64,000 nucleotides of DNA, from positions 2,455,001 through 2,519,000 of the forward strand of contig NC_036457.1 in NCBI RefSeq assembly GCF_002775205.1. The letters run 5' to 3'. The notes beneath the pieces are model-generated. The model was not told the DNA's origin, searched no databases, and worked only from the letters and a program-made list of their open reading frames with translations. Numbering within the stretch: position 1 is the stretch's first letter; every line of letters begins with the position of its first letter. The DNA comes from Xiphophorus maculatus. Taxonomy: Eukaryota; Chordata; Actinopteri; Cyprinodontiformes; Poeciliidae. The translations under genes and the position numbers were made by a program. Positions 13,611 through 53,700 of the stretch are shown here, one piece after another.

Positions 13611-13784
13611 CCATAAACAAGGATTCTGACCTTTTGCTCTTTGCTGTCCTCGTCAATGATTGACGAATAACTGAGCCGTCCTATTTCTCCTCCCAGCTGA
13701 GCTATAAGCTTTACGGACCGTAATTATACATCAGAAGGGGCGTCTGGTTGAGCGGATGATGAGCTGCTAGTCTGAATCCTCAAC
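13611..13784 (+). promoter_or_regulatory. plg proximal promoter and 5' UTR
   Basis: The block directly upstream of the plasminogen ATG. It has a TATA-like tataag at 13,703, about 80 bases before the ATG. Motifs 'ataaacaagg' (13,613) and 'ttgctctttg' (about 13,634) are shared, in the same order and at similar spacing, with the region upstream of the vWA gene (28,868-29,028). This shows that the two promoters are copies of one another. No transcription start has been measured. Confidence 0.6.
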
Positions 13785-26708
<12,924 letters not shown>

Positions 26709-26899: not shown

Positions 26900-28860
26900 C
26901 CAAACATCCCTTTATTTTTATTTTATTTTCATCTTCATTCTTTTAGATGCTTTATATATCATGTCATATAAAACATTTTTAAATGCTTTATATTATAGCA
27001 TTAATAAACTGACATTTTTCATGTGCAGAGACGGATTCTTCATAGAATCAAGAAAATTAAGAAAAATTTCTTTTCATGGTCCTTTTTTCTCACAGCCATC
27101 AGCATCTACAACAACTCTGAAAATTATTGAGTTACAACATTTAATTTCCCTTAGGTTAATAATGGTTTGAGCTGAATTGAATATTTGTGGCTCCAAACAC
27201 GTTTTATTTTGCTGCATTTTGGGGGAAAATTGATGTTTAAATTATTGCAGATCCTGTTTAAGATAACTTAAGATAAGTTAAGTTAAGATAACTTAACAAA
27301 TGTGAAAATTTGTTCTGCAAAGAATTTATTCTGCTGTTCCTCTGTCTTCATGATGCTGTTTGACTGAAATCCTCCAAAAGTCCTTAAAGCTTCTGCAGAA
27401 CAGCTGAGATTGTAATAAAATGTTCTGGTTTCAACCTGAACACATCATTAGAAGTCTGCTTTTAGTACTAGATTATATAGAAAAGCAATATTTTTACTTG
27501 TAAAGAAAAAAAAATCAAAATGCATGAATAATTTTCAATAAACTTAAAAATTATGCCCGGGTGTGTCGTGGTGGCGTAGCGGTTAGCGCAGCCCATATTT
27601 GGAGGCCTTGAGTCCTCGACGCGGTGGTCGCGGGTTCGACTCCCGGACCCGGCGACATTTGCCGCATGTCTTCCCTCCTCTCCTTCCCTGTTTCCTCTCA
27701 GCCTACTGTCATTTAAGGGACACTAGAGCCCACAAAAAAAACCCTGGAGGGGTAAAAAAACCAAACAAAATAAAATTATGCCCTATTTTGTTCGGTCAAT
27801 ACTTATTGTTGTTTTACCGCCGCAAAATGTGACAAACTCCAATAAGCCTGTCAAAAGTAAAGTTTATGTGCAGCACATTTCAGCAACTAAGCATCATAAA
27901 AACATAGCCAGTTATAAAAGGAGCAACATTTTGTAAAACAACAGAATTAATCACCAAATATAAATCAAATATAATTATCAATGTTTCTATTACTATGAAT
28001 TAAAGGCAATAAACAGGTGGGGTTTTAACTCTGACAGTGACATAATCCATGCAGAGTGAAAAAAATCCATGTAAAAACTAAAACCAGGTAAAAACCTGAA
28101 GCAAGCTTTCAATAAAAATCAACATAAACCATGTCGGTAATCTGCATGAGGAGGAGGAGCCATGCTGTTGTGTGTTTTTTTAAAAGAACAAATTGATAAA
28201 ATGTCAACCTCTTTTTCTTTTTTAACTTCAATGAGTCAGGAGCAGAGTAAGATATCTCTAACAAATGTGCTGAAGAAAATTAAAACTATTAACCAAATAA
28301 AAATTATTTTCTTTTTGGCCACCTGGTCTTTTATTTGGTACCTTGTGTTTAATGTATAACTCCACTGGGTCAATGACAATCTCTGCAAACACTGGCTTCC
28401 CAGCATTACTGTTGCATCACTGTAGAAAAAAAAGGTTACACAATTCTTGATATTATTTTGGATTTTGTAAAGTGGAGGAAACAAGTATTTGATGCATCAA
28501 GGATTTAAAAAAAAAAGTTTTCCCGCTAACCTTGCAGCTGTTTAAACTCATTGGTTGTAGAAAAGACATCCGTCCACACAGTCAGTCGCACTCCAACCTC
28601 CCACCATAGACAAGAACAAAGAGATGTTCTTTCCTAAATTAGCTGGATGGACTACAAAAATCAATCGGTTACCCTAAATTTCCCAAAACCAGTTTGGATA
28701 GTGATGTTTTATCAGAAATATTTCATGTATTATTGTTAAAATTGATATTAAATATAATATTCTCTAAACATATTAGACAAAAACATAGTCAGAGAGATAA
28801 ATTAAAATGGATAAAAGTTTGACAGTGTAAATAGCAAAGCTTTGCTTACTGGAAAGAAAA
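26900..28860. other. Intergenic region between plg and the vWA gene
   Basis: No exon is recognised. It contains a short 'agataacttaag' direct and inverted repeat (27,259-27,300), a tRNA-derived SINE (27,557-27,762), and AT-rich DNA without other recognisable structure. Confidence 0.6.
27557..27762 (+). mobile_element. tRNA-derived SINE, copy 1
   Basis: The head carries pol III A-box (tggcgtagcggttagcg) and B-box (ggttcgactcc) sequences. It is followed by a body with 'gccgcatgtcttccctcctc' and 'gggacactagagcccac', and an A-rich tail. A close second copy on the same strand is at 58,635-58,845. It is not a functional tRNA gene: the anticodon arm cannot be formed cleanly and the body is SINE-like. 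Confidence 0.85.
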
Positions 28861-28867
28861 ATACTGT

Positions 28868-29028
28868 ATATAAACAAGGACTATGGACTGTTGCTCTTTG
28901 TCTGAGTTGCTTGTCAGGCAAACCATTGGCTAAAAACTGAACTGCCCTATTCATCCAATACATTATATTTACCCCACTACAGGGATGTTTGAGTGCAAAT
29001 AACGAACAGCTGATGGGAGGTCCTCACC
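28868..29028 (+). promoter_or_regulatory. Promoter of the vWA gene, copied from plg
   Basis: Shares 'ataaacaagg' (28,870) and 'ttgctctttg' with the plg promoter. The distance to the ATG is 159 bases here and 172 in plg. A TATA-like tatattt lies at 28,964. Homology continues through the whole signal-peptide exon and the first bases of the intron. The obvious inference is plasminogen-like (hepatic) expression. Confidence 0.6.
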
Positions 29029-32000
29029 ATGGACTTCTACAAGGTAGCATTTCTGCTGGGAGCCTTCATCTGTACTGGTAAGATAAAAATATGAGTGATT
29101 TTGGACAAAAAACAAAAACAAAACAAATAGTTGCTAAAAGAGGAGTGAAGGCCAAAGTGTGGTGCGTGGCAGCTTTTGTCAGACTTTCCCAGGGCTGCTT
29201 ACACCTGAATGACTGAATGTAAAGGCCTTTCAAATCCTCTGGACTTGATGAAGCGCTAAAGAAATGCAGGCAATTTACCATAAACATGATGGTACCAGCT
29301 GAAAGTACATTACCTTTCTGATACCATATTTCATCCTTTGTTGTCAGGGCTACGAGCTGACCAGCCGCACAACGCTGTAGGTAAACAGATTCATTTCAGC
29401 TGTTTTTAAAGTGACAGGACACAACAAAAGTCACTATTTTCATATTACGAGATCCATGTGTTCAATGGAAATTATTCTAGCTTTGTTCAACATAATTGAG
29501 TTTTTGCTATGTATTTGTAAAATTCCCACATAAATATTTGTCTTGCTAATGAAGCCAATGAACTGTATTAACTCTTCGCATGCCATTACAGGACTCTACT
29601 GTTCTGCTAGGGGCATCAGGGCAACATCTATGTTCATGTGCACAGTGATCTAGAGCTGCACAATATATCAAACTATATTTGCCAATATGTGCAAAATTGC
29701 AGTTTCAAATGACCGCTAATACTTTTTCAGTGGGATAGACTTTACCTGCCATTGATGTTCATGTCTGATGTCATGTTTATTACTGGGTAGTTAAGCTCAG
29801 AGAAAGTGGTTGATACGTCATGATGATGTAAAAAGAAAGAAAACTTGTGTTAGTCCAACTGATAGTATCACTAAGATATTTGACAACTAAATCAGAGTCA
29901 TGTTTTCCTACATTGATGCAGCTTCAGGTTGGTCCATAGGACCACATCTACCTCGGACCAATGGTCAATATTTAAGTCCCATCATCAGAACTGTGGCCAT
30001 ATATAGGTTTTATTCTAGATAATGAACTCTCTTTTAAAAATCACATAGCAAATCTACTACGGACATTGAAAATGAAAATTGGGTTTTATTATCGAAATGG
30101 ATCTTGTTTTACACTCAAAGCTAGAAGAAAATTGGTAGCAGCGACATTCCTGCCACTTTTGGATTATGGAGATGTTTTATATATGAATGCTTCGACTAAA
30201 TGTCTTCAATCATTAAATACTGTGTATCATTGGGCTTTAAGATTTATAACCGGTAGTAGACGTCTGACACATCATTGTGATTTGTACGCAAAAGCTGATT
30301 GGCTCCTTTAAGTCAACGGAGAAACAATCATTTAATGATAATGATATATAAATCTCTACTCGGTCTAAGCCCAGCATATTTATCCACTCTCCTACATAGA
30401 ACTGTCGGTTCTCGTTCTCTTCGCTCCAATAACATTATTCTTCTGCATGTCCCACGCTTTAGATCTGAAAAAGGGAAGCAGGCATTCAGTGTTTTGCCCC
30501 CACAGCGTGGAATCAGTTGCAGTCTGAATTTAAGATGTTGGAAATGATTTCACTGGACTTATTTCGATCAGTTCTTAAAGATAGGCAACAAGATTCTATG
30601 GAACAGTGTCATTGTTTTTAAATTGTTTTTATTGTTTTATACTTGTGCATATGTATTAATTGTTTTTATCTTGTAAAAAGGTTGCTATGCATTGCAAATT
30701 TTTTTGCCCAGGTCCCTCTTGAAAATGAGATCTAGATCTCAACGGGGTTTACCTGGTTAAATAAAGGAAAATAGAAATAGAAAATATAAATAGACCTGTA
30801 TTTTAGCGTAGCTGTAATTTCATTTATTTTTCACATACATTTGTAACAGTTTTTTTCTTTCAGCATCTCTGTGTGAAATATCCAAAGTTGACATTGTGAT
30901 GCTAGTGGACGGTTCTGAGAGTATTTCCAACAGAGAATTTTGTACAATGAAAGCATTTATATCCCAGGTAGTTCAGAACCTCCCCATTGGTCCCAACCAA
31001 GTACAAATAGGTATTACTTTATTATCATTTAAAAATGTCATTAATGTGCTAATTTAGTTTATCTAATATGCCAGTATTGGTCAATATTGTTGTTAAAATA
31101 TATTTTTGCTCCATGTTTCTGTCTGATTTGATCTATTCATGTCTGGGTTTTTTAGGTTTGACTCAGTTCAGTACCTACAGTAAAACCGAGTTGGACCTGA
31201 ACAGCCACAATAACAATCAGACTCTGCTGCAGGCCATTGATGCAATTCAACACATGAAAGGACTCACAAATACGGGTCAGTATTGAGGACTCAGGATCTG
31301 AGTGGATCACAACTAAAAACAGGAACTTTGTCCATTTCTTCTGTTAGTCTCGCTGGAACAATATTAAATAGAAGAAGCAGTTGTACAATATTGACCCTTT
31401 GCAACTACGTCAATCACTGGAGGCGCCATGGTGGACATGGGAAGTTAGGATCGGGAGTATTGAACAAAATGACTGAAATTGTTTTCCCAAGTTGTTTTGC
31501 CAGTTTATTCATGGCTTCTACTACGAGTCCACACCTGGTTAGGGCTCATAGAAGACAGTATTTACCAAAATTTGAAATAGCTAGCTTAGTAACGGACCGA
31601 TACCGTGAACCAGACGTGATCAAAATGCCAACTTTGCCTGAATTCACACCACATGATTTATATCAGTATGTCATTAACAGCGTCTCCCTTACACTGGAGC
31701 AACCTTACAAGTTTACAAAAGACAACATGCTAACCAGTTTTTTTCTGTTTTAAAGTGAAAGCAAATAAAAGCGATATTAGACATGTCTAAGTACAGAAGC
31801 TTCTGAATATTTCCTGGGTCACATCAGCACAAATTCCAATAAGATCGCCTAAAACTGGATTATTATTTTTCTAGGCATGTAATGCTGACTCCTAGAACGT
31901 CTCTTCAACTTCTGAATTTGTTCTTTTCACATACAGAAGAAGCTCTGGATCATGTCCTTATTCGCAGCTTTCAGCTCAATGCCGGGATGCGTCCACTTTT

Positions 32001-33387
32001 CACATTTTCAGCGGCTCAACTTTTCCCTCAGAGTCTAACCTGGGTCGACTTTCTTCTGTTAGTCTGGCTGGAACAATATTAGAAGAAGCAGCTGAGTAAT
32101 AATAGAAGAACTAGCAGTTAGAAAATGCTGAGTCACTGATTACTATAGAGATTTTCTTTCATTTTTGGAGGGGGAGCCCACAGCACCACTACTTTCATCA
32201 AATAGAGTTTGAGCCTCAAAGAAGCTGCTGGGCAAAGTTAATACGTCCTAACAGAAATTTGTGACGCATCAATCTACAAATATATAGTAGCCACATATGT
32301 AATTTTTAAAAGTTTCTACATCTATGATAGACTACATTATGTGAGAAAATGTTACTATGTAAGAAGTTTAAAGTTTCTGAATGCTTCCTGGATGCTATAA
32401 GCACAAAATCCAGTCATACAGCTGGATTATTTTTTTTCCAGGCATGTAATGCTGATACCTAGAACGTCTCTTCACCTTCTGAATTTCTTCTTTACCACAC
32501 ACAGGAAGAGGTCTGGATCACGTCCTGAAACACAACTTTCAGCCCGGTGCAGGGATGCGTCCAGACTCAAAAAAGAAAGTCGTTCTGATCACTGATGGAG
32601 AGTCTACGGACAAGACAGAAATTCCTGCACAGAATCTGAAAGACAGTGGAATCGAGATCTATGTTATTGGTAACATTTGTTTTCTGTGTGGATAATTCAG
32701 TTTCATTAGTTAAAGAAAAACACATTACCAACGAGAAGTTGTTCTTCTTAGATCAGTACTATAACGGTGCACATTTTTTATAGGTGTGGGCAGTCATGTT
32801 CACAGTCAGCATGTCATTAACCAACTGAGGACCATTGCTTCTGAAGACACAGAAAATCATTTATATCTTTTTTCAACTTACCAATCATTCTATGATGCTG
32901 CCATCAATATATCCAGAAACCTCTGTCATGATGCTACCAATCTGGAAAAACAAGGTATGTATGTTTAAAAATGTAGTTCGTTTAAAAGTCATGAAATAAT
33001 AAAACATAAATCCTTTAATCTGTATTTTTAAAAAGTAGATAAGTCAGCAAAAAATAAAGCTGTTGACAATCGAGATCTTGGTTCATTGGAGTTATTTATG
33101 GTTTTGTTATTTTTGTGTTCCTTAGTTTTTTTATTTCTTTCCTCTGGTGCTCAGAGGTGGTGCATGACAGCGTCTCTCAGATTTCCCCTTGGCTGTCTGC
33201 AATGTAGCCACAGCTAAACAGCTGAACATATAAATAGAAATGCAGGTCTTTTACCATAAACATGACTGTACCAGCTGAATGTACATTGCTTTTCTAAAAC
33301 CTGCTGACATTTCATTCTTTGTTGTCAGGGCTGCAAGCTGATCAAACCAACTCAACAGGTAAACAGATTCATTTCAGCTTTTTTTAA
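29029..33387 (+). CDS. Secreted single-vWA-domain protein with a plasminogen-type leader
   Basis: Not a gene I recognise. Exons: 29029-29077, 29348-29380, 30864-31010, 31156-31275, 32505-32669, 32784-32954 and 33329-33387; every junction is phase 1, giving 247 aa. Exon 1 encodes MDFYKVAFLLGAFICTG, near-identical in length (49 bases) and sequence to plasminogen exon 1. Exon 2 adds a short linker (LRADQPHNAV). Residues about 37-215 form a von Willebrand A domain with MIDAS DGSES (43-47), a Thr in the TNTG loop and ITDGES. The phrases IGPNQVQIGLTQFS and AGMRP resemble collagen XII/XIV-type A domains. Cys31 and Cys219 flank the domain and could pair. The last exon (GLQADQTNST...) is a duplicate of exon 2; it is taken here to read through its donor to a TAA at 33,385. 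Alternatively the donor is used and further exons are missing or unrecognised. Likely a plasma adhesion or ligand-binding protein (inference). Confidence 0.75.
29930..30780 (+). mobile_element. 3' end of a non-LTR retrotransposon (L2/CR1-like LINE)
   Basis: Encodes broken pieces of the reverse transcriptase C-terminal region: RRKLVAATFLPLLDYGDVLY, ALRFITGS, YKSLLGLSPAYL and RSLRSNN. The 3' tail is 'ctcaacggggtttacctgg' then 'ttaaataaagg' and short A-rich repeats. Frameshifts make it inactive. It sits in intron 2 of the vWA gene, sense orientation. Confidence 0.8.
31380..31755 (+). mobile_element. Transposon-derived ORF fragment in vWA gene intron 4
   Basis: Contains an open frame including LPKFEIASLVTDRYREPDVI, then MPTLPEFTPHDLYQYVINSV. 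Related but decayed sequence recurs at 35,430-35,600 ('gaaatagctagctta', 'ttcacaccacatgatttata'), which shows it is a repeated mobile sequence and not a host exon. The family was not determined. Confidence 0.55.
31937..32005 (+). pseudogene. Degenerate duplicate of vWA exon 5
   Basis: After an acceptor (atacag) the sequence reads like exon 5 at 32,505: 'gaagctctggatcatgtcct' and 'atgccgggatgcgtcca'. It then diverges and lacks the ITDGES part and a donor. The upstream intron is duplicated too: 'ggcatgtaatgctga' is at 31,874 and 32,441, an offset of 567. The intact copy at 32,505 keeps frame and phase, so this one is dead. Confidence 0.75.
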
Positions 33388-33530
33388 AGTGACAGGACAC
33401 AACAAAAGTCATTTTTCTCATATTATGAGGTCTATGTGTTCAATGGAAATTATTCTAGCTTTCTTCAACATAATTGAGTTTTTGCTGTGTACTTGTAAAA
33501 TTCCCACATAAATATTTGTCTTGTTAATGC
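33155..33530 (+). repeat. Duplicate of the exon 2 region of the vWA gene
   Basis: About 370 bases match 29,150-29,575, including flanking intron ('accataaacatga', 'gtaaacagattcatttcagc', 'caatggaaattattctagct'), with an offset near 3,981. It contains the exon-2-like segment used as the last exon (33,329). It marks a tandem duplication whose second vWA domain is not found downstream. Confidence 0.85.
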
Positions 33531-34520
33531 GGAAGTATACTCAAAAATATCTTGAAAATTTTTCTGAAGTAAAAGATTTTTATCTTCTAACTTTATATGA
33601 TATGTATCTACTAGAATGTTGTATGATGTACCTACATTTTAAGAGCCTTTTGAAAAATACCCCGATTTTCTTTCATCTAACATAAGTTTGCAAACATGCA
33701 TGAAAACACTGATGAGTTAATATCCAGTTAGTGACAATTCTTTCATCATTTTCTAAACCAGGTTTCCCTAATGACGATTGAAGTCAGACATTCAGCAACT
33801 TTCAAATAGAATCTGATTAATACTGAGGCCAGCACTGTGTCACTTTGTCTCTTGTAATGTCAAATTGTTTGTGTTTAATTGATTGAAAATTTTTTAAAAA
33901 GTAAAACCTCAACATCAAACATTTTTTTCTTATTTCTTCCACATTCACTATACTGTATTGCAGGAGAACATAGCATGTTACACTATGTTGAATACATTAT
34001 ACTATCCTGTGTGTAACATACATGTTACTGTACTAATAGTATAATATGGCATGTTACACCATGTGTGTAAAATTCATCGTACTGCACTGTCTCTATACAT
34101 GAGCAAAGCATATATGTTTTTATTATGACACAATTTTACATGTTTGGTTTTATAATGACCGAGTGTATCATTATGTATTTTACTTTTATGCATCTCATAC
34201 ACATATATGACATTTTATTGTTGTTCACAGTCTAGTATGTTGAAATTTATCATGAGACATAGTCAAGTGCGATTTATCACATTACACACAACATAGTATG
34301 ATTTATGATATGACACATAGTTCAGTCTGGTTTATTTCATCATGACACAATATGATGCGATTTGCAATTAATGTTTAACAATAAACCGACTTATTTTTTA
34401 CACAATGGTTACCACAATGTATGTTTTTTACACAAATGTTCTGCTATTTTTTATCATGAGACCACACTAAGCCATAGTGTGTCATGACCTTTCTAGTCTC
34501 AAAACAGTGTACTCCAACAT

Positions 34521-34985
34521 ACACTCACTGGCCACTTTATTAGGTACCCCTGTCCAACTGCTTATTAACACAAATGTTGAATTAGCCAATTACAGGGCAG
34601 CAACTCAATGCACTTAGGCATGTAGAAATGGCCAAGACTATCTGCTGCAGTTCAAACTGAGCATCAGAATGGAGAAGAAAGGTGATTTAAGTGACTTTGA
34701 CCGTGGCAAGGTTGTTGGGGTCATACAGGCTGGTCTGAGTGTTTCAGACACTGCCGATCTACTGGGATTTTCATGCACAACCATGTCTGGGGTTTACAGA
34801 GAGTGGTCCGAATAAGGGAAAATATCCAGAGAGCCGCAACCCTGTGGCCGCAAATGCCTTGTTGATGCCAGAGGTCAGAGGAGAATGGCCAGACTGGTTC
34901 GATAGAACGGCAACAGTAACGCAAATAACGTCTCGTTATAACCGAGGTATACAGAAGAGCATCTCTGAATGCACAACACACACAG
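34521..34985 (+). mobile_element. Tc1-like transposon remnant
   Basis: Starts with the terminal 'actcactggccactttatta' and encodes KGDLSDFDRGKVVGVIQAG, then LSVSDTADLLGFSCTT and VYREWSE. These form the helix-turn-helix DNA-binding part of a Tc1 transposase. Stops follow and the catalytic domain is absent. Confidence 0.85.
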
Positions 34986-35290
34986 ATAGTGGTGAAGAGA
35001 CGGCAGAACTCTGAAAACCAGTTGTTTCAAACTGTGACATAATTTACAAGCCTGTACAGTAAGGTCACGGATTATTATGACCATCAAAATCTGTGACCAG
35101 TGTGATCCTGGCTATTTGAGGGTTAAATATTGTTATAAGCACACACAGATAGTGGTGAAGAGACGGCAGAACTCTGAAAACCAGTTGTTTTAAACTGTGA
35201 CATAATTTACAGTCCTGTACAGTAAGGTCACGGATTATTATGACCATCAAAATCTGTGACCAGTGTGATCCTGGCTATTTGAGCCGTGAA
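34981..35290. repeat. 163-bp direct tandem duplication
   Basis: The segment beginning cacagatagtggtgaagaga at 34,981 is repeated at 35,144 almost without change. The second copy ends near 35,285. Near identity suggests a recent event in an old region. Confidence 0.93.
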
Positions 35291-38411: not shown

Positions 38412-41400
38412 CTAAGCCACTTCATTAGTTTTCAAGACTTGCTTCACTTCCTGATTTTCTTCTTGTTTCCCCTTTTTCCTGAGAAAAAAAAGACTTTAAG
38501 TGAATAACAATAAAATTGTATTATAGTGTCAAAACACAATAAATCTACAACATATAAGGTACAGGATAAAATGCTAAAATCTTACTGAAGACTTAACACG
38601 AAGGGTTTGTGATTTTGTTTTTGTTTTTTACCGATCAGGAAACTCAACGTCCTGGATGGTATCAGGCAGAGCAACTCCTCTGGTTTCAGGCAGGAGCAGA
38701 ACCAAACCTCCAGCTACCAGAGCTACAACTCCTGTTTAGGAACATGAAGGTCAATGAAGCCAAAGTAGATCAATGATTGGATAACTTTAACCTGAACTAG
38801 TTCTGGTCAGTATTTGCTTTGTTTGTTTTTTTCCCATTAGCTTAAGATCAATTTTTACCAGATTAAGAAACCTTATGGTGAAACCTTATGAAGCATTATG
38901 GTGATTTATTCTGTCTTTGTTTTTTGTTTTTTTGCCACACTTAATATTTGAAATGATCAGACTGTGTAAAAACCAAAATGTAGATTTTAAATAGTGATTT
39001 AGTTTCTTCACAAAAAAAATATCAATGCACTGCTTAGAAATATTATCTTCTCCTGTTAAATCACAAATACTAAAAACTAATTTTTTGGTCCAATTTCAAC
39101 AGTCAGTCTCTGCCTGGCCTGTAAAATAACAGAAATCACTTAAAAAGAACCTGAATGACAACATGAAGTAGGCTTTAAGATCCCAGAAAGCAATATAAAG
39201 AAGTTGAAGGACAACAAAGCTACTAACATCGACCAGACTAAATAGTAGCAAAGGCATTTTTAAGGTTTTTGGATTGGCTGGCCTGCCCAGTCTACACTGT
39301 CAACACAAACAACAAAACATCAGAAACCTACCAAAGATAATGAGAGGCAGTTCAAGCCAGATGCTGGCCAGTCTGTAGAGCAAGAAGGGAGAAACAATTC
39401 CTCCAATATCACAAAGAGTGGAGCAAACCGACACTCCCAGGTTCCTATAGCAACAAGTTAGAGAGGTTAGTTATATAGTACATTAGCTTTAAAGAAGTAA
39501 GCAAAAAAAGTCAGCCCAATTGATGCTTATTTTTTAATCACCTAACACAAGTCGGGTAAAGCTCAGTGTTAACAAACACCACCATCTCAAAGGCCATGGT
39601 GATCCCCAGCCGACCGATGCAGGAGACTATGGTCTTTAACCAGAACATGCCTGAAGGACAGAAAGTATTTATGCAGTGGCTGTTTTTATGCTTCTTCCAA
39701 ATTTTATCCTTTAAGAAGTCTTACTGTCAGGAATGAAAGCAGTGACGAAGCAGGAGATTCCAGCTACGATGTTGGCGGACGCAAAGGGAAGCCGACGGCC
39801 GATCCGCTCAATCGTCAACAGGATGAGGAACGCGGCGGGAAACTCGACCAGACTGGAGATAAGGAAGTCGATGTAGACGTTTCCTCCCGTTATCCCCACC
39901 CGCATGATGAGGCCCTGATAAACCACAGCACTGGTGAACCTAAGGAATAAAGGCATAAAAAGTTCAATCTTTCCTACATGCAGGGCTGGAATGATCTGAT
40001 GTTTTAGATGAGCCTGACCAGTTAAACATGAGGATGAAAGTGTGTTTTCTCATATTGGGAGTTCTGATCAAGTCCAACAAAGAGGCAGAGGTGGACGCAA
40101 CGTCATCACCAGTTAATATCTATGATAAGACACAGTTCATTAAAATTACAATGGCAACAGTAATGCAGTTATGGATTAAATTACACAGTACTGCCAGTAG
40201 TTTAAAATATGTTAGGTGGTAATACCCACATGGTGTAATTACCCAAAGTGAACAAGTTGTTTTCAGTATTTTTGATGAATTACATAGAGAAGTTGTAATT
40301 ATGTAATTAAATTGTACATTATTCCTTGAAGATTTTATATTACATCCAATTTCCAAGAACTGTTTAAGCCAGTTGAATATTAAGAAAAATGCAGAGGTGG
40401 GTAGAATTTGTATTCAAGTAAGAGTAGGACTACTTCAAAATATCTTTACTCAAGTAAAAGTAAAAAGTAGCCGTCCAAGAAATTAGTCAATTAAGAGTAA
40501 ATAAGTTTTTGGTAAAAAGTCGGTAACTCAAGTACTGAGTAAGTGATAAAATTCTCAATCATTTAATATTTAAAACATGCATAATCAAATGGACCAAAAT
40601 ATTAATTTAAGAGAAAATTTGAGTATTTTTAGAACCAAAATGATATATATGTAAACAAAAATTAACAAAATCAGGCGAACAAAAATGTTTCCAAATCAGT
40701 TTATTTCAATAAAAAAACTTTTGAAACTTTAACAAAAAGCACATTTGTACTACAGTATATGTGTATGTTTGTTTTCCATTCACTGAGTGGAGAATCCAGA
40801 AATTTTACTCAAGTACATGTAATTAGTTACTACAATTTTATTTTGTGTGATTTTAATATATTCATGGTCAAACTCACTGAATGTACACATAGTCTGATCA
40901 AATACATGCTGAAGTGACAGAGTGAAGTAAATAAATACCAAACGTCAGGAAGCCTATTATAAACGTTCTCTTCACTGTATTGATGGATTCTTTCACCAAA
41001 GCAAAAGGGCTAAATAAAAATGTACTTAAACCTTGTTTACATAAAAAATGGTCTAAATCCTTCCACTTCAGAGGAAAGGAGTTGACTAATGACAGGATTT
41101 ACCTCAAAATGAGAGGAGAGTTTCTTCCTGTTCTCCTTGGCAATAGCCTCGGTTATTTCCAGAGCTTTTGAGGAATTGTTTTGAGAGATGAGCCACCGCG
41201 GAGACTCTGGGATAAACCTGACAGATAAAACCACAGAAACATTTTCATCTTCAAGCAGGCAAAAAGGGGCTGTTTCTTTTTCATATGAACAGTTACCTGT
41301 ATTCTGACAGCAGCAGAATGCAGGTTGCATAAACAAAGAAGATTCATAAATTCTCAGAAAAGCTTTTCTGTACCTCATTCTTGTAATCAATAGATGAATC

Positions 41401-44400
41401 ATTTGCTTGCCATAGAGATTTATTAACGATTGGATACGTTCACTGGACTTATGTTCCAGCTTAGTCAAGCATCAACACAGTGAGCCAATCAATCTGCTCC
41501 GTGTTAAAACTCTGGAAAATGAGTTAATGTTTCAGGTGCTCATCAGGGCAAAGGTGAAAATGTGGCCTCTGTTGTTCCGAGATTCTACCATAAACAGAAC
41601 ATAGAAAACGTTCAGATCGAAGGAAGGAACTGACAGCTGCCAGTGGAAATTCTTCATGGCATAAAATGAAGTTTTTAATCCACAGCATCACAAAGTCGAT
41701 GACGTTGCTTGTTAAAATAATATCTCTAATGGACAATCTCAAGTTCTTTCAGTAATAGACTGCTTAATCCTGGTTGCACAAAGAAGCGTTATCACAGATC
41801 CTTCCAGTTGGAAGACTTTAAAATCATCACTTATACTTTTATCATGGTGTCACCATCCAATTGTTTTGCTCAATCCTTAAACATTGACCATTTTGGGATC
41901 AATGTTTAGTGTTACATAGATTATGTGTTTCCAAATTGTAAGATAATTGTCCGATTATTCAGTAGAAGCATTTTGCTTGCTGTGGAGAGAATCTTCATTT
42001 GTGCAGACAGAGAGTCTGCATTGCGTAGCATTAATTAAAGCTATGCTAATTGTTTCACTATTTGGATTGCAATTGCAGCATAAATATGAAACGACACATT
42101 CATTTTACATGCATTGCAATCCAGTCAAATGTGTTTGCCTGGTAATAACCGTGTAATAAATATATGTTACATCTCAGATGCATAGAAAGATACACAATTA
42201 TAATACAGAAGTATTTTGAAGAAATCTGCAGATTAGTTTATTTCAATATCCTAATTTATTACTAAAGCAAACTATTCATAGTGACAGATTATGTAAAAAA
42301 AAGTTCAAATGAAGGCCAAGTATTTACATAAGGACAAAAAACTGCAGTTTATTACCTGTAGTAAGCAAAATAAAGGGCATACGGTGCCGTGAAGGCAACC
42401 TGCAGCCAGCGCCAGTCAGTGATGAAGTAGGCGAGCAGAGGGAGGATGAGGAGCCCAATACTGAAGAACATCTGATACAAAATGCCGACTGTGCGTCTGT
42501 ACTTTACCCCAACTAATTCTGTTACTAAAACAACAGAAAAGGCAGAACATCAAGCCACGTTCTGTTTTAAAGAGACAAGAAGACAAAATGTGAACTCTCA
42601 TCATTACGCAGCACATATATGGCCATCCAGCCTCCTTTGACGCTGAAGCCGGAGATGGCCCTGAGCACCAGGATGACGATGTAGTTTGGTACTACAGCCA
42701 AACCGATTCCTGCTACAACGTTTATCACGTTGGACATGAGGAAACTCTTCATTCTTCCAAATCTACACAGAGAAAAAACAAAACAGCACATGATATATTC
42801 TCCTTTAATACTTTTTCAATATGAATGAAATCCTCATTTTAAACTACTGTCTGTAACAAATGGTTAAAAGTTTGTTTTTTCGTACTTTTTTGGGATGTTT
42901 TTTGTTATTCTAGGTATTTATCACGGCCCTACCTGTCAGCAAAGTAACCAAAAGCAAAGCTGCCAAGGAGGAAGCCCATGTTGAGAGTTGACTGGTACAT
43001 ATCCACCAGCCATCCATCTGAACACACCAGGTTGAACTGAAAATATTTCAACAGAAAATGTGAAAAATTGCAAAGTGAAAATGATAAAATAACAAAAACA
43101 AGAAGCCAATTCTGTGAGATTAGTGGGTGTCAGTACAGGGTGGACATGTACAAACATTTTTTATTTTAGCGACATTAAAGATGTCAAGTTGGTCAAAATG
43201 TGTCATTTTATTTTTTGAATTTATTTTAGTCAATTCAGCTCTGTTGCTCCTGACGGTTGGTGGTTACCATAGCAACCAGTAACTGACAGCAGAGAAAAAA
43301 TTGGGGAGGAGCTGTCAGCTGCTCATAGTTTCCTATTCCTCTGTAGTTTATTTATTATATTTTATTTAATGTGTGGAGACAGAAGCTGCTGGACTCAGTT
43401 AGCAGGTATTTTTTTGGACTGTGGAAACACCCAGAGAAAATTCATGCATGCAAAGATAAACTACAGCTAAGAATTGTTTTAATCCCTGCTGTACTATGCA
43501 CCCTTTTTTAAATCAAATGTGAAATATTGCATAAATTTCATCACATTTTTTAAAAGTTTGCTCAAATGTACAGATTTCTTTCTCACCTCGGTGACAAATG
43601 ACTTCCTGCCTTCATAATGATATTCCCAGCCTTCCTGAAAGACAGAAAATATAATAAAAGAGAAACTGTTTCATTAAAAACAAGCGAAGGACACCTAAGC
43701 GTTTGTATATAAATTGGAGTTGCCATCTTGGCAGGTGTTTGAGATATTATTAAAGATGTCAGTTATAAAAAATGTCTTCAAAGCAAGCCCATATATTCAC
43801 AGGACAAAAATACTTTCTGTGCAATGAAAACAACGCAACAACAAAATTAAATTTTTTGACCAAATTTTGCAGACAAATTTTGCAATGGAAACCATGGTAA
43901 CAAGCAGATTGTGGAAAATCTTATTTTAGTTGTTAAAGCAGGTACAATATGATGAAGAGGTAAAATATCCTGTGGTGGACAACTTGTGAACTTAAAGTTG
44001 AGCTTAAAGACCAACAATGCAAAAGTGTGAAATGACCGGCACTCACTTACATTTATTAAAATAAAAAACTGCATGATTTGTCTAATTTAACTGCCTGAGT
44101 GACATTAATGGGAAACATCTGATTGAATTATAATACTGAAAGGATGAAAATGAAACTTTTCATTCCAACCCTGCTCACGCTCCCTGACTGACACTGATTG
44201 CATAGAAGAGGTTGCAGCTGTTGCACGAATCCGATATAAATCAAAAATTAAATTTGTTCCTAGGTAATTAGTTTGTCTGACGCCACAAAGAGAAGTTTGT
44301 TATTTCTTTCACAGCTCTAGATGTTAACAACCTCATTACATTTTTGCAGGATGGGAGCAGAAGGAGGAAGCAGCGTGAATGTGGAGCAGCTTCGCTGCAT

Positions 44401-46547
44401 TGCCTCACAAACGGAGGATAAAATTTTCCTTTTCTTTAAAAGATTGTTTACATCTCCACAAGAACATTTTTATGTAACTTCGGTGTCACAGAGGGGCTAA
44501 CAAGAAAAGCAAACACCAATAAAGTGATCATTTCTTAGCAGACCAACATTGTCTTCTGTACATTTATTGTTATTATTCGCCCAGTGTTACAAGGTTATGA
44601 ATTTGGATGTTTTTCAAAACTTTAGGGCCTTTAGCAGAACAGAGGTCCCAGATGAAGACTTATTTCTGAATCAGAGGTGAATAGTTTTGTCCTTTTTGTT
44701 TATTCCTTTATTGTTCCGACATTCATAGAGCAAAAACAAGGATCTGAAAAGGTGATGACTGTCGGAACAACATCACAGCAGTTGTTTACCTCCATTGTCA
44801 GATTGCTGTCGATCATTATGTTATAAACCCAGTTCTCTGACTTTCAATAACTGTAAGATTTTCACAAATAAGGGCGAGGTTACACCGCTGGAGAGATAAA
44901 AATTTTAAACTGAATGGTCCTTTGTGTCTTGTTCTCCATGAAAGTGGGGATAAATTATTCTTGCACACTTTGCACCATCAAAATGTGACCTACACGTTCG
45001 CACCATGCAATGATGCAAATGTGTAGGTCTAATGAGAAAGAAAGAAATAAGTCAGTTTATTTCACGTTATTGTTGGAATAATCATGTAATTGAAACAGTG
45101 ACACATTTCCAGGTTCTTGTATTCTACAAGTTTCCCACTAGAGGGCAAAATTTTAAATACACTTTCACCTGTTGCAGAGGTAAGAAATACACTGAGGCAA
45201 TAAAAATGATTTTAATTGCATATAATGTGTAATTTTTTATCTAGATTCTGGGGCTCTACAGGAACTTGTTTATGCCATCGGCTGGAAAACTTTCTATTTG
45301 CTGAGGTAGAAAGTTTGAGATGCTGCTTTTTCAGTTTCAAGCAATAACTAAGAAACTACAAAATTTGCTGTTCTTTGCCAAACAACCACAAGAATGCAAA
45401 TGTGCCAAATGAACGCATGAGAAGATGCTGAAGAGAGCTGATGAGAGACGGAGCTGAAAGAAAAACAGAGACGGAGCTGAAAATATTTTACATAAAGTCC
45501 AACGGACAAAGCAGTGACATGCCTGCACTCAGGAAGTGTTGGAGAGAAAATGTTCAAACTTACATCAATAACGTTTGTATTCCCTCGAAGCAGACACTTG
45601 TGGCTACATTTTGATGCATAAATGATTTCTATATAGTGAAATATGTCCAGACAGCAGCATTTTGTTTGTCAGACTTCAAAAAGGGTCGGTTACTATAGTG
45701 ACGCATTCTGGCAGCTGAAGATTAGTGGAAAAACTGAAAACAGACAAAAAATCTGCATAAAACTTAAATCGTGATTTTAGAAAAACTGTAAGAGATATCA
45801 AAAAGATGAATCATTTGAAGAGAGTTCAACACCTTGTGACTTGATTAAAAGTTGAATGAAGTTTTGATGTTGAAGTAGGCAGTAGCAGTAAGCTGTCAAA
45901 GAGCACAAAGTGCTGAATTTTGTGGAATTCTGAGGAATTTCAATGCATTTCAATGGGGCTGAAATTCACATAAAAGTTTAAATATTTCAAAAAGTAGAAT
46001 AGATTAAATTACCAAATGTAATAGTGCAGTTCCCCAGAAGAAGCTGAACATTTTGATATATGAAATGTTAAAATCGGTCAAAGTATGCATAAGTAAACTC
46101 AGAAGGCATACAGAAAATGGAATAACAACAAAAAAGAGAAACAAAATGTTAAGAAGTGATAATGCTGAATGCATTTGATTGCAAGAAACTGACCTTGCAT
46201 GGTGTAACAGCCACTCCGCTAAAGTCCAGTCCTTCTGGGTCACAGCTGAGTTCTGTGTTGTTCCAGTCCACCTCATGCTGATCGCAGCTGCTGTGCTGCA
46301 GGACTCCTGAGACGTTGAGCAGCGGCGCCGTCAGGCTGCGACTCTTCTCCAGGCTCCATCCGCAGGCCTCCCTCTTCTCCACCAGCGCAGAGTCCCGGCA
46401 CCAGTGATCCGGCGTGAAGCCCTGGAAGACGATCCCAACGTAGACGCCGGAGAAAGGCAACGACAAGAAGCAGAGCATGGCGAAGATCCGCTTCTGGCAG
46501 CGGCCGAAAGAGCCGGCCTCCTCCAGGAGGTCGTCAAAGGTCGCCAT
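38412..46547 (-). CDS. slc22a2: Organic cation transporter, SLC22A2/A3 type, plg-proximal copy
   Basis: Plasma-membrane facilitator of organic cations, 12 transmembrane segments (MFS). Exons (transcript order): 46194-46547, 43587-43634, 42933-43036, 42608-42762, 42356-42524, 41103-41217, 40019-40119, 39725-39939, 39542-39650, 39332-39444, 38632-38731, 38412-38478; phases close and give 549 aa. Starts [16 protein letters not shown]; large glycosylated loop with NVSG and NNTE; GYFADRFGRMK (MFS motif after TM2); [17 protein letters not shown] after TM6; [22 protein letters not shown]-like IERIGRR; CDIGGI with the TM11 Asp needed for cation binding; LLPETRG near the end. Exon 1 is split by a 2.56-kb intron after PCK, absent from its neighbour although the summed length (402 bases) is equal. 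Paralogue naming (A1/A2/A3) cannot be settled without a tree. Confidence 0.9.
40388..40840. repeat. Fish repeat rich in 'tactcaagtaaaagta'
   Basis: In slc22a intron 6, starting 'gcagaggtgggtagaatttg' and continuing with several 'actcaagtaaaagtaaa' motifs. It closes with 'ttttactcaagtacatgtaa' near 40,800. This is a recurrent fish non-autonomous element; exact ends are uncertain. Confidence 0.55.
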
Positions 46548-47749
46548 CCAAACGCTGAAGTTTGAGTGTTTGATGCTGGTCTGTTCGGCTCACTGTAGGT
46601 TTCTGTAAAGGTCTGCCCTCAGAGATTTTCATTGTTTAAATGTTGCGTCACTAAGCAGGTCAATGTCCGGAGGTAAAGTCCAAAAGTTTGGTGAAAAAAA
46701 AATCTAAAAGCTGCACAAGAGGAAAAACCTTCAATATTTTTAATGAGTGAATGACAGAGGAGTTATCCAAACTTTAATACGCATAATTTGTAACAAGCAT
46801 GCTTTCTGTTTTCAATGAAGTATTACACAATCACAGATTCAAGGAATACAGATAATCATTGGTATCCAGGAATGTTTAGGATTCAATGATTTACATATTT
46901 AGAAAAAGGACATCTTCATAACCAGCATTATATGAAATATAGGAAGGAGGATCAAGAAAAACAAATGCTGCATGTTTCTTCTTCTTCAATACAGAATAAA
47001 GTCAAAACTTTCAAGAAAAATGTAGAAATGCTGAGAAAAATGTAGAAATTCAGTTTTAAAGATAAAACATTGACAATAATGTGGAAATAAGTCAGAATGA
47101 TGTAACTGCTGCGTTCAAGATGTTTATATCCTAAAGTAGAAATAATGTCCCTCTTATTAAATCTTATTCTAAAAACATAAACCATATTTACGAGGAATAA
47201 TTGATAGACGTAATTTACTTTTTATACTTTTTTCTATTTCATTTTTAATTTTAAAATGGAAACACAACAGCAGCTAAACTTCCTCATTGTTTTTTTCTTC
47301 TTCATAGAAATATATGTAATTTTCTCCACAGAAACAATATATAGACAATAAATTATGAACTTTAGCTGAATAAAGGTGAGTTACTGTGAACTAATGAAAG
47401 TTCATAGACTGTATAGTTTGAACATGAAATCATGAAGTAAAAACTTCCATTTTCAGGCCCGATTATCAGATGTTTCAGCTGCATGATTATCGCCCTCTGC
47501 TGGCCATAAAACATCACGTTAGATTAAAAATCAGTAAAACTTTTTACCTCTGAACAAAAACACTCAACACTCCAGTGTATTTAGAATAAAACTCTTTAAT
47601 AATTTAATACTGTAGCTAAACAGCAGAAAACATAAACGCAGATTCATCTTAGCTCTAACTTCTGTGAATATGTGAACAGTACAGCAACAATATGAGTTTT
47701 AGTGAATCCAAACAAATAAAAACAGAGTTGAGGAAGAGAAATAAATAAA
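46548..47749. other. Spacer between the two slc22a genes
   Basis: About 1.2 kb holding the upstream region of the plg-proximal transporter and the 3' flank of the other. AT-rich, no further exon seen. A CTCF-like motif lies at 47,491. An ATTAAA poly(A)-like signal for the distal gene lies near 47,598. Confidence 0.5.
47491..47508. promoter_or_regulatory. CTCF-like motif between slc22a copies
   Basis: cgccctctgctggccata is a close match to the CTCF core. Motif resemblance only. Confidence 0.3.
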
Positions 47750-50700
47750 TCAGACAACTGCTGGTTCTTTGCAGGACGACACATTGCTGTTGGGCAGCAG
47801 GTTGGCCACCTGCTGGCTCTCCAGCATCATCTTTTCCTTCACCCTGAACACAAACATCATGCATGGAAAAACCTTTGTCAATTTATACAATAGAACATTT
47901 TAATTTTACCCTAGTTTGCTTCAGGAAGACAGGCAATAAGCACAACCTTTTAAATATTTTGCTACATATGGTTAAAAAATGACAACAGAGATTGGGCCAG
48001 GCTAAGAAAAAATAAATAAAATAACAAGAATTACGAGAAGTCATAATATCGCGGAAATAAACTCGTAGGAGAATAAAGTCATAATATTACAAGAATAAAG
48101 ACAAAATATTCTGAAAATTCTGACAACAAAAAGATTATTAGAGAGATGCTAAGACAATAAAAAAATAGATAATATTATTAGAATAAACTTATATGAGAAT
48201 AAAGTCATTGTATTGTGCGATATTCTTATATGTCTTCATTTTCGTACAGGTTTATTCTTTTGGCCGCTGCCAGAATAAAGTTGTAAAGACATACAACTTT
48301 ATTCATGCATGTCTTTATAAATGTACTTTTATTTCTATCACTATTTCTTAGCATAGCCCTAATACTCCGTTGTAAAAAATAGATTATTGTGGAGGTTTAG
48401 TTTCCTCTGTCAATCTTTTTTTTCAGTAAAAACTAATATCTCCCCCTGCTGGCTAGTAGATAAAATGCATGCTTAGAAATCATAAATATTAGTTTTATTT
48501 TTAGACTCTGTTTCTTTTCCTCAGTTTGATTCTTTAATGTACATCCATGAAAGAAACTGGACAGGCGCATTTAAAAATATTCTTTTTTTTGTAACAAGCA
48601 GCTCACCTCTCAGGAAACTCGATATGGTCGATGGTGTCAGGCAGCGGCACACCTCTGGTTTCTGGAAGAAGGAGAACTAAACCACCAGCCACGAAGGCCA
48701 AACATCCTGCAGAGCAAATTAGAAACTCAGCTTTTATAATCATGTTAACTTCTCATTTTTTGTCACAACTAAAAGTTTTAGTTATTACTTAAAATGAGTA
48801 CGTAAAACAAGCTCCTCTTTCTTGCTGAAAAGTTACTTGTAAGTAAGTTTTGTTTTATTTCAAGTGTACTAAAATATTTGCATTAGAAACTACAGCAGAA
48901 ATACAGAGTTTATGTTTTTGCATTATACTTTCATTTCCCTTGCAGTCGCTCAGTAGAGTATTGATGCAGTTCCTTTAAAATTTCAACAAACATTTGGAGT
49001 GACACTACTTTGCTTTAACACCATAACATATAAAACAATCTAAAATAGTTTTATTTCAACTTATTACACGCTATTATGTTGTGGTTGGTGAATATTTGTG
49101 TCCCCAGACGTAGCAACACTGATTAGTTGATGTAATTTACAGGCCTGATTTTGGACCAGACAGTGGAAATGCACACAAGTTGCAGACAAGGGAAACTAAA
49201 AAAACTCTAGAAAATAAAATGAAGAGGAAAACTGTTGTGGTTTACATTGATCCATCCATCCATCTTCTAACACTCTTGTCCCCCAGTGGGGTCAGGAGGT
49301 GCTGGTTCCTCTCCAGCTAACGTTCGGGGCAAGAGGCGGGGGGTCACCCTGTACAGGTCGCCAGTCTGTCGCAGGTTTACATTGATGTGAACCTTAAATG
49401 ACACTGTAGGTTATTTAAAAAACTAAGAGCACACCAAAAATGATGAGTGGGAGCTCAAGCCAGATGACAGCCAGTCTGTAGAGCAGGAAAGGAGCGACAA
49501 TGCCCCCAACGTCACACAGAGTGGAACAAACCGACACGCCGAAGTTCCTAGAAAGACAACAAGTCTGAGATTTAAAATGCTTCTTAACCAAAATATACGA
49601 ACAATCAAAGAAAGAGTCTTACCGGACAAATGTTGGGTAGAGTTCAGTGTTTACGAAAACGACCATCTCAAAGGTCATGGTGATCCCCAGCCGACCAACG
49701 CAGGCCACCACAGTCTTAAACCAGAACATACCTGAGAGAGTCGAGGAAAAATAAACTGTTAACTTGGAGTAATACATTTAGCTTTCACAGCTGATGGTCT
49801 GATACACTCAGTTCGATTGGGGATCAAAATTGAAACATTTGTTACATTTTCAGCTAGTTACGGTTAGCTATGTGTCAAAGTTAACCTCCTCGCCTGTGGG
49901 GGCGCTGCACCAAGAACCACTGAAGGAAACAAAACGAAAACTTCTGAATGTAAAACAAAATGGAGTGGCAACAGATTTTAACGGATGTAGGATTTCTCTT
50001 TTGTCTTTGTAAAAGACCATGAGCCATTTCTACCACTAGAGCTAGACACAGGTTTGTTTTGGTTGTATTTACCCAGAATGCCTTGTGTTTTAGTTTGCTT
50101 CCTGCTTTTAGAGCGGTCACATATGCATTCAAACCGCACAAGAGTCCACATCAACCGAACCGAGACCGAGGTTTGTAGGCGAACTAGAGTTCGCTTTAGA
50201 GTCGAATTACACATTCACACCTCCCCAAACGAACCAGACATTTTAGAGTTAAATGAAAGCGGACCAAACAGGGCTGGTGTGAATGCTCCCTAGTTTCTCC
50301 TGAGAGCCTCACTGTCAGGGATGAAGGCTGTGATGAAGCAGGAGGCGCCGGCCACGATGTTGGCGGTGGCGAATGGGAGGCGTCGGCCGATTCGCTCGAT
50401 GGTGAAGAGGATGAGGAAGGCGGCAGGGAACTCCACCAGCCCGGAGATCAGGAAGTCGATGTAGACGTTTCCTCCCAGAATTCCCAACCGCATGATCAAA
50501 CCCTGGTAGACGACGGCACTGGTGAACCTGGGGGCACGCCGACACAGAAGCCTTAGAAACGCATTTTTGGGATTAACATAACGATAGAAGCATGAAAATT
50601 GTACCCTAAAACTTTGAAACTGTGTCAAAATCAGGCTAAAATTTTATCCAGAAAGATTCTCTTCAGCCTGGGAATGAAAGGGTTAAGTTTTTGTTTTTTT

Positions 50701-53700
50701 ACATATTTTGTTATAAAACAGATAATCTGTGAAAAGATTGGTCTATTCCACCTCTTACCTGAGCTGATATTTCTGTCTGAAGAGATGCAACACTCCTGGT
50801 CAAAAACAACCAATCAGAGCGAGGAGGAAGGTCATAACGCCATCAATCAACCGCATGTACTTGTTGCTAAATGTGCTAATGGTGGAGAAACACTTACCTT
50901 TACAGGAAAACTGTTTATCTGCCATAATTAGTGGCTATGTTAACTAGCCTTACCATTCACAACAGGCTCTGCTGACAAAGAGAAACTGAATCAGCCATGA
51001 CTGGCAGCGCTAAGACCCGCCTCCTGGCTCTGATTGGTTGTTTCTAGTTAGACATACAAGATGGCACAGGAGCTCAATTTTTTCACAGATTATCCGTCTC
51101 ATACCATATTGTTATAATATAGAGTCAGTTTCAATGAATTATTGACTTAAAACAAGCTCCTATATCTGCCTGAAAAGTTACATGTAAGTTAGTTTTGTCT
51201 TGTTTCAAATTTATTAAGATATTTGCACTGGAAACTAGACAAACAAAACTTTTGTTTTTCAAAAACTGGGGGAAAACCAGCGTTTGCATGGAGTTTTAAG
51301 AGAAAAGCTCACCAGTTGAAGCTGAGAATAATTGTGTGTTTTCTCATTTTTGGAGTTCTGATCAGGTCCATAAAGGAGGCGGTGGAGGAATCAGCGTTAT
51401 CATCCGACAGCGTCTATAAAACACAAACATTCAGGAGTTTCACATGCCAGGTTATCTGTCCAGACTGAGGAGGAGAGGTGAGTGCTACCTCGATCATCTT
51501 GGACAGAGTCTTTCTGTTTTCCTTCGCCATGTCTTTGGTGATCTTCACAGCTTTGGACTTCCTGTTCTGAGACAGCAGCCATCTTGGAGATTCAGGGATG
51601 AACCTTAGAAGTAAAGACGACGATGGAAATCATGAATCTTCCACAAATCCCAGTTTTTCACCTCATACTGTATGTCTAAATTATGAGCTTTTGCAAGCCA
51701 ATTTTGAAAAAACTCATTTTCCAATAAAATGTTTTTGCACTAGGATGAGGTGGTTTTTTCAAAATTAGTACATTTTGCAAAACTGCAAAGAAAAGTTTTG
51801 GGGGGTTTTTTGTGAATCACACTCATCATGTGATCAACAGCCTATGGAAGAAGATTAGGGCCAAAAAACATTCTGACATTTTCCTTTGTTCACTAAAGAA
51901 GTTCACTGTTTACTCATCAGTGAGGCATTCGGGCGTCTCACCAGTAGTAGGACAGGAAGAGGATGTAGGGGACGGTGATGACGACCTGCAGCCAGCGCCA
52001 GTCCGTGATGAAGTAGGCGAGCAAAGGGAGGATGAGGATGCCAACGCTGAAGAACATCTGGTAAATAACTCCCACCGTCCGTCTGAACTCCACCCCAACG
52101 ATCTCTGTGACTGATGTACAAACATTTTGTTCTGGATTTTTTTAAGTACACAGAATTAATTTATTTCTATTTATGTAGAACAATGATGACTTTATTAGAA
52201 CTGAAAAATCTGCTGATGCTTGTTTTGTTTCATGGATGTGCAGGTGGCCGATGTGTTCAATGGTATATTGGAAAGGAAAAAAAGGAGTAAATTTCCTTAA
52301 AAGTGATAAGAGCTACTTTATATGTTTTTATGTAACTGTTTTATGTTTTATGTAACCTGCAAACCACAGAAGTCAAAGCACCACAAACAAATCCTGGACA
52401 GTTTTAACAGTTTTTAAACATCATTAATTAGAATTTATTGTGACAACAATAAATCAAAATCTTATTATGCTAAGAAATTTATCACGATAACTGATAAGCG
52501 ATATGATCTGTATGTTAAATAAAAAAATTCTCACTGAGTACGTATCCCGCCACCCATCCTCCTTTCACTCCGAACCCGTACAGAGTCCTGAAAACCAGTA
52601 AAGAAATGTAATTGGGAGCCACGGCCACCAGGATGCCGGCGATCCCGTTCAGCACGTTGGACATGAGGAAGCTCACTTTCCTCCCAAACCTGCAGAGACA
52701 CAAACATTTACTGGGAAATGATCCCAAACTCCGACATCGTCCTGCTGTTTAAACTCAATCAGAGCAGAGAAAGCAAAGCAACCTGTCGGCCAGGTAACCG
52801 ATGGCGATGCTGCCGATCAGGAAGCCAACGTTCAGCGTGGCCTGGTACAGATCCACCAGCCACCCGTCTGAACACACTAGGTCAAACTGCAGACACAAAA
52901 TCAGGGTGAAACATGAAATAATTTACATTTTATTTGCGTTAAACAGAATATTAACCTGTTAGAAATATCAGTCTTGGTCAAGAATCTCCTGCAATTTTTT
53001 TTTTTTATCTCAGTGGGATTTTGCTGGTGAAATAAAGGTTAATAAAATAAAATAAAAATAAATAACTGAAGCTACAAACTTTTGGAAACCACAGAACTAC
53101 ATTGCATTGATTTCAGAAATTTTAAAGAAAAAGAAAAAAGAATTTCTGAGCTTCAAAGGTAAAAAAAAAAAAAAACATTGGAAAAGAAGAAAACTTAAGG
53201 GGAAAAAACAAGGAACTTTTCTGAGTTTGAAAAATCTAAAATTGTTGACTTTTCAAACTGAAAAGTTTTTTTCTCCACAATTTCTGAGATGAATTTCATA
53301 ATTTCTGAGCTTTTTCCTGGAACAGAGACTTTTCAAACTCAGAAATGTCCACATCATTTTCTTTAATAATTCTGAGAATAATCTCAAATCTCAATTTTTT
53401 GTGCAAATTTTTTATTTTTCAAATTCAGACATTTTTATGTAGTTTTTTCTAAAATGTCTGGGATTGATCTCAAAATTGCTGAGGTTTTTTTATTTTTATT
53501 TTTTTGTCAAATGTTCAGCTTCTCAAACTCAGAAATGTCCGAGTCTTTTTCTAAATAATAAATTTACTCTGTCTTCATAGTTTTGTCTTGTTTAAAGTGT
53601 ACAAAGATTTACAAACTAGACCAGCTTGGTCAGATTTTGTGTTTTTGCAGTGTAAACCAATTTTCTCCTGCAAACTTTGCTCAGGCAGAAATGTTTATCC

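Follow-up and report, generated by a model that had tools for sequence, protein, structure and literature searches.

A 64-kb window of the platyfish genome (Xiphophorus maculatus, contig NC_036457.1, positions 2,455,001 to 2,519,000) carries a gene in which the beginning of plasminogen (plg) is joined to a von Willebrand A (vWA) domain. The gene lies ~2.3 kb 3' of plg on the same, plus strand. Its chimeric origin is well supported, with both parental genes identified at the DNA level: plg for exon 1 and the promoter, and a family of teleost vWA receptors for exons 3 and 5. Judging by sequence, we consider it highly probable that this is a plg/vWA-receptor chimera with a secreted product, a judgement that leaves aside the route of its formation. 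All coordinates are positions within the window unless a contig is given (C10 and C12 are platyfish contigs). No description of this plg/vWA gene was found in the literature searched, in keeping with the original prediction for this stretch, which was made from its sequence alone and knew of no gene with this make-up.

The plasminogen promoter and leader exon

Positions 13777-13849, at the start of plg, pair with 29021-29093 over 73 nt at 81% identity in a repeat search (blastn E 8e-14). This match takes in the end of the 5' untranslated region (5' UTR) and the complete coding part of exon 1 (49 bases), and it reaches into intron 1 for 16 nt; the two first exons, both 49 nt long and in phase 1 as predicted, are identical at 39 of 49 positions. 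A second, colinear piece begins at ATAAACAAGG (13613-13685 against 28870-28951, 71% identical, blastn E 0.002), and ATAAACAAGG lies 172 nt from the ATG in plg and 159 nt from it in the vWA gene. By itself ATAAACAAGG is weak evidence, since 5 of 100 shuffles contain two copies. Taken whole, the 190-nt stretches that precede the two ATGs give a local alignment score of 44, against maxima of 26 and 27 for random stretches of the window (0/972 and 0/981 as high). When 28860-29100 was searched against the 704-Mb platyfish genome, with a method that scores the best candidates only and skips very common words, it matched its own locus and plg alone (E 1.7e-10). We also rejected the idea that the leader belongs to a wider repeat family, since plg is the sole other match.

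The leader peptide was compared in the same way. With MDFYKVAFLLGAFICT, the 16-residue leader of the vWA gene, plg homologues have 8 residues in common at the median and 13 at most (best 120 of 4355, 113 of them starting with Met; platyfish plg is not among these 120). Platyfish plg itself shares 10 of 16, and ten leaders of the vWA family share 2 to 4 of 16, an inner Met being taken as the start in two of them (P0004 and P0024). The native leader of the donor receptors is of the MDHLLLVLLLLWSS type and is replaced in the window gene. Both the alignment of promoter block and first exon with plg and the descent of the signal-peptide exon from it, as first proposed, are upheld by these comparisons. 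The leader of the vWA gene retains Y4, F8, L10, and T16, which are frequent in percomorph plg leaders and altered in platyfish plg, and its F13 is common to platyfish and Nothobranchius plg; this pattern suggests that the plg start was probably not copied very recently. Upstream of the vWA gene, no counterpart of the HNF1-like palindrome of plg (13652-13664) was present when up to 2 mismatches were allowed, and HNF1-like sites in the window are not above chance. That the protein is probably made in the liver, as originally predicted, we can only infer.

The vWA donor family

Two protein searches returned 14 and 134 proteins at E <= 0.001, 120 of the 134 being listed. The proteins listed include fish proteins made of a leader, a GLQAEGxHxSTG-type stretch, and a vWA domain, several of them with a transmembrane segment and an ELDYYNLGV-type tail, and two (P0024 and P0035) with additional SRCR domains. 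In a tree of 25 rows (three of them, two from Gambusia, less than half filled, and one Cyprinodon row long), one clade unites the proteins of platyfish, swordtail, and Gambusia (100/100); its neighbors are the membrane-anchored proteins from Poecilia, Poeciliopsis, and Gambusia (87/86) and then Fundulus (85/95). The original prediction had likened the domain to that of collagens XII and XIV; these are ruled out as donors by the tree, in which the two collagen rows stand apart, and by the closer receptor family. By its sequence, the vWA donor is a teleost receptor family combining vWA, in some members SRCR and Ig domains, and a membrane anchor.

Searching the platyfish genome with the anchored single-vWA protein of Poecilia (P0004) gave 92 matches, and those of at least 55% identity are confined to the window and to C10:17756270-17759659. 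The latter lies in a platyfish vWA receptor gene (L031; G000:C10:17756000-17760500, minus strand), whose vWA introns have the same places and phase as those of the window gene (places judged from tblastn pieces and by eye) and whose vWA part is followed by two SRCR domains (E 5e-22 and 4e-12), an Ig domain (E 1e-7), and a transmembrane exon. Exons 3 and 5 of the window gene match L031 with 72% DNA identity (blastn). The anchored single-vWA form, known from Poecilia and Gambusia (P0011), may have been lost from the platyfish genome, since P0004 has no closer match there.

Before its vWA domain the window gene too has a GLQA-type stretch, in which GLRADQPHNAV corresponds by eye to GLQAEGSHTSTG and similar sequences. 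Given the layout of the donor family and the likeness to L031, exon 2 is most likely the donor's mini-exon and not exon 2 of plg, with exon 7 as its duplicate. The block shared by exons 2 and 7 has no further match in a search of the platyfish genome. Two-vWA relatives (P0003) have a similar short linker between their vWA domains (by eye), so exon 7 may be the leftover of a second vWA unit. The ELDYYNLGV-type tail found no match in the window at E < 1 in a tblastn search with P0004, and the transmembrane anchor is absent from the protein.

Exon structure and product

Positions 29029-33781 encode 244 amino acids and a stop in eight coding exons with AG/GT sites (Table 1), and the earlier claim that all exons join in phase 1 is borne out at every junction. 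The predicted protein and P0001, an NCBI platyfish model that is named 'collagen alpha-1(XII) chain-like isoform X2' and agrees with exon 8 at its position, are the same in all 244 residues; the label 'isoform X2' implies at least one further isoform. The frame is open as first described, but its supposed length of 247 residues and end at 33387 were wrong, because the donor of exon 7 had been read through to the next stop. A Pfam search of the protein gave vWA models and nothing else: it found no PAN, kringle, or trypsin domain and no FN3, TSPN, or triple-helix part. The metal ion-dependent adhesion site (MIDAS) is intact, as predicted, with DGSES in exon 3 and ITDGES in exon 5, and its residues are kept in both X. 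maculatus and X. hellerii. The partial copy of exon 5 holds an open yet truncated vWA-like start (EALDHVLIRSFQLNAGMRP). Intron 2 contains a reading frame (29976-30547) that we take to be the remnant of a long interspersed element reverse transcriptase; a 111-aa piece of it had no Pfam match at E 0.01.

Table 1. Features of plg and of the chimeric vWA gene in the window
Feature	Position	Strand	Remarks
plg coding region	13785-26705 (end approximate)	+	PAN by eye, five kringles, protease
plg source block	13613-13849	+	Proximal promoter/5' UTR, exon 1 (13785-13833), first 16 nt of intron 1
plg-derived block of chimeric gene	28870-29093	+	ATAAACAAGG, 5' UTR, exon 1, start of intron 1
Exon 1	29029-29077	+	49 nt, donor GT, phase 1; leader MDFYKVAFLLGAFICT, from plg
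Exon 2 block	29260-29551	+	Direct repeat of exon 7 block (33236-33529), 86.5% identical over 297 bp
Exon 2	29348-29380	+	Mini-exon GLRADQPHNAV, most likely native to the vWA donor family
Exon 3	30864-31010	+	vWA start, MIDAS DGSES
Exon 4	31156-31275	+	vWA
Partial copy of exon 5 block	31797-32000	+	Decayed, 78.5% over 200 bp
Exon 5	32505-32669	+	vWA, MIDAS Asp (ITDGES)
Exon 6	32784-32954	+	vWA end
Exon 7	33329-33358	+	Second mini-exon GLQADQTNST, most likely duplicate of exon 2 block
Exon 8	33762-33781	+	FPNDD and stop

Fold and divergence of the vWA domain

AlphaFold predicts an intact, Rossmann-like vWA fold with confidence, in which the DxSxS, Thr, and Asp residues of the MIDAS are present; a first model was poor (predicted local distance difference test score 56) and was set aside. 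The proteins of X. maculatus and X. hellerii differ at 21 of 239 residues and by a 5-residue gap, with no change among the 16 residues of the leader, and the 3' ends of the Xiphophorus models are different from that of the Gambusia model. Stronger constraint on leader, mini-exons, and tail than on the vWA exons was considered and dropped: a cut at residue 26, which leaves out V27A, gives P 0.014, and the exon borders give P 0.08.

Changes are enriched in the upper loops of the domain, which were chosen by hand from the secondary structure of the model and compared in pairs that are not independent: 7/34 versus 11/146 between X. maculatus and X. hellerii (P 0.03), 8/16 versus 6/71 between X. 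maculatus and Gambusia (P 0.0004), and 5/11 versus 10/71 between X. hellerii and Gambusia (P 0.03). Relatives show the same enrichment in four of five pairs (e.g., 16/38 versus 26/138, P 0.004; P 0.16 for the fifth), and the two pairs of the chimera with a relative show none (P 0.28 and 0.24). The enrichment therefore seems to be a property of the family, visible between close pairs, and we rejected divergence of the MIDAS face as a hallmark of the chimeric gene, since relatives show it as well.

Origin of the chimera and alternative explanations

We propose that a copy of the plg start provided the proximal promoter, 5' UTR, and signal-peptide exon, and that the mini-exon and vWA exons were copied as DNA, introns retained, from a teleost vWA receptor gene laid out as signal peptide, GLQA mini-exon, vWA, sometimes SRCR/Ig, and transmembrane tail. 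The receptor's own leader was swapped out and its membrane anchor lost. Because every piece is flanked by phase-1 introns, joining them required no repair of the frame, and DNA-level shuffling through such introns is likely. With the leader replaced and the anchor gone, one would expect a secreted protein with a single vWA domain. We infer that transcription starts from the plg-like promoter; the protein would be made wherever that promoter works and would bind its ligand through the metal-dependent MIDAS face.

The Gambusia affinis orthologue (P0007), 86% identical over the shared part, bears on how much of plg was copied. After exon 7 its model continues with 51 residues matching the first half of a plasminogen kringle, with 51% identity to kringle 3 of platyfish plg (two-sequence comparison, E 1.6e-13), 58% to Nothobranchius plg, and 65% over 34 residues to an apolipoprotein(a)-like protein of grouper. 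This tail reaches E 5e-5 and 23.9 bits against the Pfam kringle model, under its cut-off of 34.3, and 45 bits against a model built from 409 kringle pieces; two kringle cysteines are replaced. It is predicted to be a decayed plasminogen-type kringle exon, and because the vWA exons run into it, a duplicate of plg may have been the host. On what seems the most likely route, suggested by this one predicted protein, the vWA cassette would have entered a plg duplicate between signal exon and kringle exon, the kringle being lost later in Xiphophorus. More specifically, though only tentatively, an ancestor of Xiphophorus and Gambusia might have had a plg duplicate at the place of primate LPA that took up a vWA cassette from a fast-evolving membrane receptor family; the resulting plg signal exon, vWA, and kringle form would persist in Gambusia, and a trimmed, soluble form of the receptor domain, driven by the plg promoter, might serve in Xiphophorus as a plasma decoy or adhesion protein. 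The original statement that the rest of the gene is unrelated to plasminogen thus holds for platyfish and fails for the Gambusia model; likewise, the plg 5' end was duplicated before an A domain as proposed, but more than that end may have been copied.

The copy may instead have been limited to a small 5' segment of plg (~230 bp) placed upstream of a resident vWA gene, with no plg-duplicate host. This is a question within the chimeric interpretation, its likelihood not to be added to those of the other readings, and we regard it as possible but short of an even chance: in platyfish the homology extends no further than the first 16 nt of intron 1, and around the gene no additional piece of plg was found, against which stands the kringle exon that follows the shared exon 7 in Gambusia. 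Several further observations weigh against our interpretation as a whole or against the plg-duplicate host. The kringle join in P0007 is an automatic prediction that may fuse neighboring genes. No kringle remnant was found 3' of the gene in platyfish between 26.8 and 64 kb, either by tblastn or in six frames with a second-half model (121 pieces) and the first-half model (409 pieces), both of which do detect the kringles of plg, and the kringle matches on the plg chromosome are plg's own. The leader is nearer to the plg of other percomorphs (13/16) than to that of platyfish (10/16), and its residue 16 is Thr, in contrast to the Ser of plg in platyfish and Nothobranchius, which leaves room for different times and source lineages of the copy. 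The plg leader is demonstrated in the two Xiphophorus species only, the Gambusia model being without its 5' end, and support for a joined transcript consists of protein models in two species. Between X. maculatus and X. hellerii, changes outside the vWA exons (1 of 43 residues) were not significantly fewer than within them (20 of 196, P 0.08).

Two readings dispense with a functional chimera. The locus could be a decaying or mis-annotated gene whose exons can be joined without yielding a functional protein, as the partial copy of exon 5, the long branch in the tree (0.5), the divergence from X. hellerii, the discordant 3' ends, and a gene known from protein models would suggest. We think this unlikely in view of the open frame across eight exons with consensus splice sites, the unchanged leader and conserved MIDAS residues in X. 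hellerii, and the confident predicted fold. Far less probable still, and strongly disfavored, is that the leader is the vWA family's own and drifted toward plg, the promoter match being due to chance. Several leaders of the family do likewise start with MD, but native ones match at 2 to 4 residues, and drift would have to account for 81% identity over 73 bp to the sole other match in the genome and for an upstream score exceeding all 1953 controls.

Comparison with known systems

The teleost vWA receptors (P0004, P0005, P0017, P0021, P0024, and L031), annotated as collagen alpha-1(XII) chain-like, cartilage matrix protein-like, or M130-like, resemble the window gene in the vWA domain, the GLQA-type mini-exon stretch, and proximity in the tree. 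They have a native leader, a transmembrane tail in complete models, and in some cases SRCR/Ig domains, whereas the window gene has the plg leader and no anchor. With plasminogen and its duplicates (primate LPA; P0122 of grouper, Epinephelus lanceolatus) it shares the signal exon, the proximal promoter, and the place beside plg and an SLC22A gene; P0122, an apolipoprotein(a)-like plg relative, has a plg-type leader joined straight to kringle 3-like repeats. Unlike this family, the platyfish protein has no PAN, kringle, or protease domain. The FACIT collagens XII and XIV share the vWA domain type with it, but their FN3, TSPN, and triple-helix parts have no counterpart in the protein.

Chimeric genes formed through capture of a signal exon are already known, and this plg/vWA gene is a further case. 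In the antifreeze glycoprotein genes of notothenioid fishes the signal exon itself derives from a protease, and the new coding part is a repeat, whereas the window gene acquired a whole pre-existing domain of another gene family. These antifreeze genes have been described as encoding a novel secreted protein of fish that arose from a trypsinogen-like protease gene and has its signal peptide in exon 1 (PMC10256766). The platyfish gene appears to be a clean natural example of gene stitching, with the plg start set before an adhesion-type domain of a receptor family to give an apparently new secreted protein. Living fish preserve both parents, the break points in phase-1 introns, and relatives at what seem to be separate stages, so that poeciliid genomes offer a direct test of the order in which duplication, insertion, loss of the anchor, and loss of the kringle took place. 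Behind the public name 'collagen alpha-1(XII) chain-like' there is a chimeric, probably secreted protein.

Neighboring genes and repeats

The identity of plg follows from five kringles of two exons each, a trypsin end (E 5e-16), and PAN exons recognized by eye. Downstream of the vWA gene lies an OCT2-like SLC22A gene on the minus strand; 39330-54260, on this strand, apparently holds two tandem SLC22A (OCT-type) copies, with blocks 75-82% identical in the repeat search and one frame matching OCT2 (E 1.5e-35). The human order is PLG-LPA-SLC22A3. The segments 27559-27769 and 58638-58848 form a repeat pair (89% identical) with a tRNA-like head, which we take for a short interspersed element; tRNA prediction called no tRNA gene there. 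At C12:10633409-10634799, four kringle matches lie inside 1.4 kb, two with an in-frame stop. Just 3' of the vWA gene, 34977-35283 contains a tandem pair of 144 nt with 98% identity.

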